A DNA stretch of 41,662 nt, taken from NCBI GenBank assembly GCA_030627235.1, contig DAOUSL010000010.1, forward strand, positions 1 to 41,662, written 5' to 3'. The notes beneath the pieces are model-generated. The model was given only the letters and a program-made list of their open reading frames with translations, ran no database searches and had not been told where the DNA came from. Origin of the DNA: Thioploca sp. (GTDB lineage Bacteria; Pseudomonadota; Gammaproteobacteria; Beggiatoales; Beggiatoaceae). Of the stretch, positions 34,212 through 36,184 are shown piece by piece. The translations under genes and the position numbers were made by a program. Within the stretch, counting starts at the first letter, position 1, and each line of letters starts with the position of its first letter.

Positions 34212-34259
34212 TAGGAGTGCAAGATTCATCTTGCTTACAAACTAAAGTTTGCACTCCTA
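34212..34259 (+). repeat. Stem-loop repeat after pyk (family C, copy 1)
   Basis: TAGGAGTGCAA (34212-34222) and TTGCACTCCTA (34249-34259) are perfect 11-bp arms. Inside lies a shorter palindrome, GCAAGATTCATCTTGC (34219-34234), that would compete with the outer stem. The 22 bp at 34220-34241 recur with one change at 36135-36156. It may end the pyk transcript. Confidence 0.7.
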
Positions 34260-34361
34260 TGATAAAAGTGATTTGATAGCAAGTAATATTTAATTAAATC
34301 ATAGGATTTTTGGATAACTGGTAAATCATTCATTATAAAATTTTAGGTTGTTAATAAAAAT

Positions 34362-35765
34362 ATGACAATAAAATTAATTATATTGGCAATAGTATTTGTA
34401 TTAAGTGGTGGAGCGGCTTTTTCAGAGTATTTTAGAGGTCATAAAAAACTTTCTTTTTTAGCAACGGTTATAGCGATTATTGCTACTTTTTACTTATTTG
34501 AAGATATTTGGGAAGATATTGAAGAACAAATTTCAAAAACTAAAGAATCAACAATTACACAATCTCCGGTATTAAAGCCATCAATTCAACTACCTGTAAT
34601 AACTAAATCTGAACCTCCAGTATCAAGTTTATCAACTCAAATAGTAACCAAACCTAGTCCACCTATAAAAATTAATGAAGGAAATTTCACAGCTTATTTT
34701 CAGCCTAAAAAAGATGAATTTGAAACTACTACTGATTTCACAAATCGTAGGCGTAAGTTATTACAACAGTTCAATAATAATGTTAAACAACGTAATTTAG
34801 CTTATCAAGCTGGAATATTAAGTTTAACTAAATATAATGCTGATAGTCAAATATTTATAGTAAATTTAACTTGGCAAGCAAATTGGGTAAATCAGTTTTT
34901 TGGTAAATTGGAAGGTAAAGGTATAGTTAAAATTGGAGTTAAAGAAGCTAAACTTCTTAAACAAAAAGGTTTGAATAAACCATTGTTTATAACTGCTAGT
35001 TTAAATGATAATCAAGTTGAAATTCAAGGTTTGATAGTAGAAAATAGTCAAATTTACCCAATTTCCTTACTAAAAATACCTCAAATGGTAAAAATTCCAG
35101 TCGGAAAATTTCAAATGGGAGATATTCAAGGCAGTGGTAGTTCTGATGAAAAACCAGTACATTGGGTAACTATTAAACAACCTTTTTTCATGAGTAAATA
35201 TGAAGTAACCTTTGCCGAATACGATGTTTTTGTTGAAGCTACTGGTAGAAAACAACTTAATGATGAAGGTTGGGGACGTGGTAATCGGCCAGTAATTAAT
35301 GTTTCTTGGCATGATGCGGTGGCTTATACAACATGGTTAAGTCAACAAACTGGCGAACAATATAGGTTGCCTTCGGAAGCAGAATGGGAATATGCAGCTA
35401 GAGCTGGCACTAAAACTAAATATTGGTGGGGGAATGAGATTGGAAAGAATAAGGCTAATTGTAATAGATGTGATAGTCAATGGGATAATGAACAGACTGC
35501 TCCTTTAGGTTCTTTTAGTGCTAATCAATTTGGTTTATATGATACAGTAGGTAATGTTTGGGAATGGTGTGCAGACAATTATCAAGATAGTTATAATAAT
35601 TTTCCAACTGATGGCAGTGTATGGGAAAAATCCAGTAAATACCGAGTGTTGCGTGGTAGCTCGTGGAACAACAATCCTGTCAATACTCGTGCTTCTGATC
35701 GTGTTAGGTACGACCCAGATTATATGTTCAGCAATGTTGGTTTTCGGGTTGTGCGGACTTTTTAA
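34362..35765 (+). CDS. Membrane-anchored SUMF1/CLec-fold protein, candidate DGR target
   Basis: A 467-aa protein in four parts: two hydrophobic segments (about 3-20 and 29-46), a Pro/Ser-rich linker (about 65-100), an unrecognised domain (about 104-235, with ETTTDFTNRRRKLLQQF), and a C-terminal SUMF1/formylglycine-generating-enzyme-like domain (about 245-467). The last has IPVGKFQMGD, YEVTFAEYDVF, RLPSEAEWEYAARAG, GLYDTVGNVWEW and RVLRGSSW. The Cys pair of active FGE is absent from the RVLRGSSW...GFRVV region, so oxidase activity is unlikely. Residues 431-467 resemble the variable region of DGR target proteins of this fold. A binding or display role is inferred; substrate unknown. It interrupts pyk-fba. 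Confidence 0.8.
   Translation: MTIKLIILAIVFVLSGGAAFSEYFRGHKKLSFLATVIAIIATFYLFEDIWEDIEEQISKTKESTITQSPVLKPSIQLPVITKSEPPVSSLSTQIVTKPSPPIKINEGNFTAYFQPKKDEFETTTDFTNRRRKLLQQFNNNVKQRNLAYQAGILSLTKYNADSQIFIVNLTWQANWVNQFFGKLEGKGIVKIGVKEAKLLKQKGLNKPLFITASLNDNQVEIQGLIVENSQIYPISLLKIPQMVKIPVGKFQMGDIQGSGSSDEKPVHWVTIKQPFFMSKYEVTFAEYDVFVEATGRKQLNDEGWGRGNRPVINVSWHDAVAYTTWLSQQTGEQYRLPSEAEWEYAARAGTKTKYWWGNEIGKNKANCNRCDSQWDNEQTAPLGSFSANQFGLYDTVGNVWEWCADNYQDSYNNFPTDGSVWEKSSKYRVLRGSSWNNNPVNTRASDRVRYDPDYMFSNVGFRVVRTF
35652..35762 (+). other. Candidate DGR variable region (VR)
   Basis: The last 37 codons of the SUMF1-domain gene run from RGSSWNNNP to NVGFRVVRTF. Val440 (GTC), Tyr450 (TAC), Asp451 (GAC), Phe456 (TTC) and Ser457 (AGC) sit where DGR targets of this fold usually have template Asn (AAC). 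Each can be reached from AAC by changing A only. C-ending codons are frequent here yet rare in the rest of the gene. The segment ends in a less variable, G-richer stretch (GFRVV) where mutagenic homing would begin. No template repeat or reverse transcriptase is in the window. Confidence 0.55.
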
Positions 35766-35862
35766 CCCTTTATTCTTTTTTCTCCTCTTTTCTCTTTTAC
35801 ACTTTTGACTTTAAAAATTTTTGGGGTTTTTGAACATGATTTAACGGATTAATTGTCTGAAT

Positions 35863-36114: not shown

Positions 36115-36134
36115 TTCAAACAATTTTAGGATTA

Positions 36135-36156
36135 CAAGATTCATCTTGCTTGCAAA
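36135..36156 (+). repeat. Family C repeat, copy 2
   Basis: This 22-bp string matches 34220-34241 at 21 of 22 positions in the same orientation. With copy 1 it brackets the SUMF1-domain gene between pyk and fba. It lies about 30 nt before the fba start. Confidence 0.65.
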
Positions 36157-36184
36157 TACAATTATAAACAACTAGGAAAATTAT

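Follow-up and report, generated by a model that had tools for sequence, protein, structure and literature searches.

Remote variable proteins of diversity-generating retroelements (DGRs) are known from cyanobacteria (Vallota-Eastman 2020, PMC7517822), where C-terminal C-type-lectin (CLec)/formylglycine-generating enzyme (FGE) domains are joined to many N-terminal modules, caspase and kinase among them, and where the targets are dispersed over the genome and carry their variable region (VR) at the 3' end. In Thiohalocapsa PB-PSB1 (Dore 2024, PMC10907252), targets in trans match a distant template repeat (TR) at all non-A sites, orphan VRs occur without a template and MITE-like repeats lie near the DGR loci; a role as antigen sensors has been proposed for such targets. 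In a further, inverted type (Schillinger 2012, PMC3521204), TR and target lie opposite the strand of the reverse transcriptase (RT). The DGR of Bordetella phage BPP-1 comprises RT, Avd, TR and a spacer RNA, and its VR is followed by a GC-rich hairpin (z -4.4). In systems of this kind, a DGR RT together with Avd would copy the transcript of a template repeat rich in A, misreading its adenines, and the cDNA would replace the 3' end of FGE/CLec-fold genes with matching ends anywhere in the genome.

Here we describe a gene from Thioploca sp., found in a window of 41,662 nucleotides (the whole stretch of DNA that was analysed) within a genome assembly of 4.58 Mb, 471 contigs and 98.9% completeness. 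This gene is very likely a remote DGR target, with a patch probably written by retrohoming from a second template (TR2) related to the assembled one (TR1). Remote targets of this type are a kind already known, and with them a lineage of filamentous or giant sulfur bacteria joins the multicellular bacteria with dispersed DGR targets. The cyanobacterial arrangement recurs here, with C-terminal CLec/FGE domains on various N-terminal modules, dispersed targets with a 3'-terminal VR, and related RTs (about 70% identity); the host, however, belongs to another group, and a single template is assembled, with which several families of VRs do not agree. Likewise, targets in trans whose non-A sites all agree with a distant TR are found as in Thiohalocapsa, together with VRs orphaned of their template and MITE-like repeats near DGR loci, but activity was shown by reads there, whereas the present system is known from one assembly. 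The features of the gene are as follows.

34362..35765, plus strand: target gene, 467 aa, with N-terminal hydrophobic segments (by eye), a linker and a C-terminal FGE/C-type-lectin-fold domain
35076..35756, plus strand: FGE-sulfatase domain (PF03781, 2.8e-61), formylglycine Cys pair missing
35643..35754, plus strand: VR, homologous to TR1 of contig C315; it contains an insertion of 6 bp (CCAGAT) that is also in the VR on contig C93
35755..35760, plus strand: boundary motif GGACTT, immediately 3' of the VR, complementary to AAGUCC of the TR1 spacer RNA and coding in the window (R-T-F-stop)
35766..35812, plus strand: pyrimidine-rich tract, without a hairpin, also found 3' of most other VRs in the genome

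The gene lies between those for pyruvate kinase and fructose-bisphosphate aldolase, and its nearest paralogs are on contigs C382 (74%) and C315 (71%). An earlier, sequence-only reading of the window had taken its C-terminal end for that of a SUMF1/CLec-fold protein without the Cys pair for formylglycine formation. The PF03781 match agrees with this assignment, and the aligned sites are N/N (SSWNNNPVNTR), compared with GSYLCHDSYCNRYR in the FGE 2q17, which sets the window protein apart from the formylglycine-generating enzymes. The predicted structure of the domain (pLDDT 79, pTM 0.84) resembles PvdO, FGE and Treponema TvpA (2y3c, E 6.6e-12), the last of which is a known DGR target. From fold and family, we infer a variable binding surface on what would be a ligand-sensing membrane protein; the protein is intact and was probably retained as a fixed binder.

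The codons on which the reading had based its claim of hypermutation are correct (V440 GTC, Y450 TAC, D451 GAC, F456 TTC, S457 AGC), and C-ending codons are indeed scarce in the rest of the gene: they make up 9/106 of the two-fold codons before residue 429 and 7/15 after it (Fisher p=6.5e-4). The GC content of the VR is 48%, compared with 33% for the whole gene. The conserved GFRVV end and the pyrimidine-rich tract described there are both present. The proposed range of 35652-35805 captures the VR but begins about 9 bp too late (the true start is 35643, the end 35754), and beyond 35754 it runs through the final codons and the stop into the pyrimidine-rich tract.

A search of the window's contig yielded neither an RT nor a template repeat; the reading had placed the retroelement elsewhere. 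It sits on another contig, C315, which carries an RT and Avd and, next to them, the template repeat TR1, which is rich in A, about 110 bp long and located downstream of the RT on the opposite strand. The RT (347 aa) carries the DGR version of the (I/V/L)GxxxSQ motif, IGNLTSQ, as well as YVDD; the Avd scores 136 bits with equivalog NF033474 (cut-off 80) and 83 bits with PF22296 (cut-off 40). Relatives of the RT are found in Parabeggiatoa (74%) and in Thiomargarita and cyanobacteria (about 70%). TR and target of this DGR are opposite the RT strand, as in the inverted type (PMC3521204), whereas VR gene, RT and TR share one strand in most of its relatives; an exception is Candidatus Parabeggiatoa sp. 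HSG14 (L106:9277-9405, minus strand), where the template is also opposite the RT. The RT on C315 belongs to another lineage than those of the inverted type, and this layout probably arose separately.

TR1 differs from the VR on C382 at 7/34 A sites and 0/81 others, and from that on C168 at 15/34 A sites and 0/82 others, i.e. at template adenines alone. Judging from these comparisons, the C315 DGR has recently written other genes of the genome. Next to the C382 target (L021:1194-1442), a truncated Avd gene marks a second DGR cassette in decay, from which the RT is gone. Where C315 ends and C168 begins (L004 end, L029 start), the two contigs overlap by 102 bp with 2 differences, both at template-A sites, which fits two alleles of one VR in the sampled population, possibly, although two loci are also feasible. 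The sister genes with VRs bear caspase (C333, C150) and DUF4062 (C168) modules, domain partners that belong to the cyanobacterial repertoire (PMC7517822) and fit the antigen-sensor role proposed for DGR targets (PMC10907252); a kinase fusion on C302 is without DGR signs.

How does the window VR compare with this template? It is 72% identical to the TR over 114 bp and 81% identical to the C93 VR, and as a 3'-terminal VR in a CLec/FGE gene with at least 50% identity to a DGR VR or TR, it has the hallmarks of a remote DGR target. That TR1 itself rewrites it at present is highly improbable: the 5' end of the window VR (CGAGTGTTGCGTGGT) matches TR1 and the GGACTT boundary motif matches the TR1 spacer RNA, but besides 14/32 A sites, the two sequences differ at 12/75 other sites and by the 6-bp insertion, whereas the recent copies on C382 and C168 show no non-A mismatch at all. 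Given these 12 mismatches and the insertion, TR1 did not write the window VR recently and is not its last template. The reading had proposed to look for a repeat of ~100 bp that matches except at template A; the repeat of about 110 bp falls short of this by 12 non-A sites and 6 bp. Of its wording that the gene 'is, or once was, hypermutated', the second half is therefore better founded than the first.

An enrichment of differences at template-A sites, which the reading had anticipated among homologous copies, is evident at moderate strength in comparisons between paralogs. With codon positions held fixed, differences are in excess at TR1-A sites relative to C382 (p=0.004), C333 (p=1e-4) and C93 (13 seen, 8.3 expected; p=0.011). 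Relative to C382, amino acid identity falls from 81% before the VR to 32% in its core, and the balance of changes between codon positions 1+2 and position 3 shifts from 42 vs 53 before the VR to 19 vs 5 within it (p=0.0019). The relationship to C93 is the reverse of what the proteins as a whole would suggest: identity in the FGE domain before the VR is 51%, yet third bases are identical in 34/39 cases in the VR vs 98/177 before (p=1.1e-4), and codons for the same residue in 21/21 vs 58/82 (p=0.0018); in all, five comparisons were made. Both VRs also share the CCAGAT insertion. A DNA patch that is common to diverged genes and varies at template adenines fits retrohoming from one template, and the window VR was probably written from a TR2 that it shares with C93. 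The 10/73 non-A differences between the two indicate that they have since drifted or stem from different versions of that template.

It is very unlikely that this C terminus arose with no retroelement involved, through ordinary divergence or gene conversion among FGE genes. FGE paralogs without DGR signs (C26, C302, C383) do vary strongly in the same stretch, but pairs among them mostly lack the shift to codon positions 1+2, the sole nominal exception being C302/C383 (p=0.041). The window VR, moreover, combines the A-site excess with third-base conservation relative to C93 and the boundary motif, in a genome whose DGR writes sister genes.

We therefore prefer retrohoming from TR2, a template that would since have been lost or not been assembled. 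No template fitting the window VR at non-A sites was found in the assembly by DNA search, motif pattern or a covariance model of the spacer RNA. Scanning with the start-motif pattern returned ten copies (TR1, 8 VRs and 1 unrelated sequence), and the spacer-RNA model matched in the genome on C315 alone. A search of plasmid DNA with the window VR gave no match. In the congeners G001 and G004, the locus beside fructose-bisphosphate aldolase holds no orthologous VR, since the adjacent gene there is not an FGE gene. Further templates have existed, as the VRs on C150 and C333 differ at 23/32 A sites and 4/73 others; this pair bears the same sign of a further lost template as the window and C93.

An active TR2 that has fallen into an assembly gap has a low but appreciable probability. 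In its favour are the 471 contigs, with C315 and C168 both breaking at their ends in these repeats, and the further templates to which C150 and C333 (23/32 A, 4/73 other) point. These are opposed by the completeness of 98.9% and by the lack of a second spacer RNA or DGR RT in the genome or in four congeners (one 99% complete), among which a broken fragment in G002 is the sole DGR-RT trace. Under retrohoming from TR2, the window VR was last rewritten long ago or from a template missing from the assembly, and it is now probably fixed; that it outlived its template would be one route to the fixation of a selected binder.

The boundary of the VR may bear on how targets are chosen. Most VR genes of the genus have CGGACTT and then a pyrimidine-rich tract after the VR; the motif is coding in the window, C333 and C323, non-coding in C382, C168 and C144, and lost in C93. 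The template carries a different two-base version at this point (TTACTTATC). A spacer RNA lies 3' of the DGR template (L004:2416-2519, minus strand) and at 21 related loci (alignment A2). The 22 loci share one covarying structure with compensatory changes at 16/23 pairs, and the outer 3' strand closes with AGUCC, after which comes a conserved A; an Rfam 15 scan of five loci (L004 and four relatives) found no family at the gathering score. The target GGACT right after the VR pairs with this AGUCC of the template RNA, whereas the template itself cannot. Tentatively, the template RNA may read the GGACTT after the window VR as the address of its target. AAGUCC, on the spacer strand immediately 5' of the adenine that primes the cDNA, would make up a single antisense strand with that cDNA, complementary to the target across the VR boundary, and with the template mismatched there, information would flow from template to target only.

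Where TR and VR first differ, pairing with the spacer strand is seen for the base of the VR in 32/34 loci and for that of the TR in 2/34, with L116 and L139, whose automatic registers look wrong, scored as failures; the former is the informative figure, because the TR must differ from the VR there by definition. When VR flanks were dealt to other loci, the pairs at three positions dropped from 87 to 65 of 102 (0/20000 shuffles), a drop partly due to the boundary offset.

BPP-1 (L154) also has a VR complementary to its spacer at the boundary. VR positions 118-126 (TGACCACCT) are the perfect complement of spacer 48-56 (AGGUGGUCA), including three differences between the initiation-of-mutagenic-homing signal (IMH) and IMH*, and the BPP-1 TR forms no equivalent helix with the spacer. 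This pairing ends at A56, the priming adenine, with A56/G117 as the BPP-1 priming site. Priming is described in general terms in PMC12875486. Across 27 non-redundant loci of the BPP-1 lineage, the VR mostly pairs over 7-9 bp (mean 6.5; TR mean 4.2), and the pairing sequences are invariant, hence without covariation. The hairpin differs: directly 3' of the VR, where BPP-1-type target sites have a GC-rich hairpin, none is found in the window (z -0.85) or on C382 (z -0.26), compared with z -4.39 for the BPP-1 control.

Together, the alignments suggest a pairing rule that would apply to 32/34 DGRs of the clade, with some covariation, and, with a different sequence, to BPP-1 relatives. No prior statement of this complementarity between target flank and spacer was found in the literature searched. 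As a simple base-pairing means by which DGRs may find their targets, the rule is the part of this analysis worth testing. If true, it explains the TR-to-VR directionality and target choice (IMH vs IMH*), and it allows remote targets to be found and retargeting to be designed.

Other RTs of the genome were rejected as DGR candidates: that on C291 belongs to a group II intron, that on C309 (L002) is a type XI retron RT-protease, that on C352 is CRISPR-type, as judged by its neighbourhood, and that on C313 (L005) is a UG5-nitrilase. The enzymes on C313 and C309 represent two further defence-type RTs. Lastly, the window contains a MITE-like palindrome, GGAGTGCAARATTYATYTTGC...GCACTCC, at 34212-34265, with a degenerate copy at 36127-36180; of its 23 exact sites in the genome, 5 lie beside DGR-type FGE genes (C93 twice, C144, C315 and C414).
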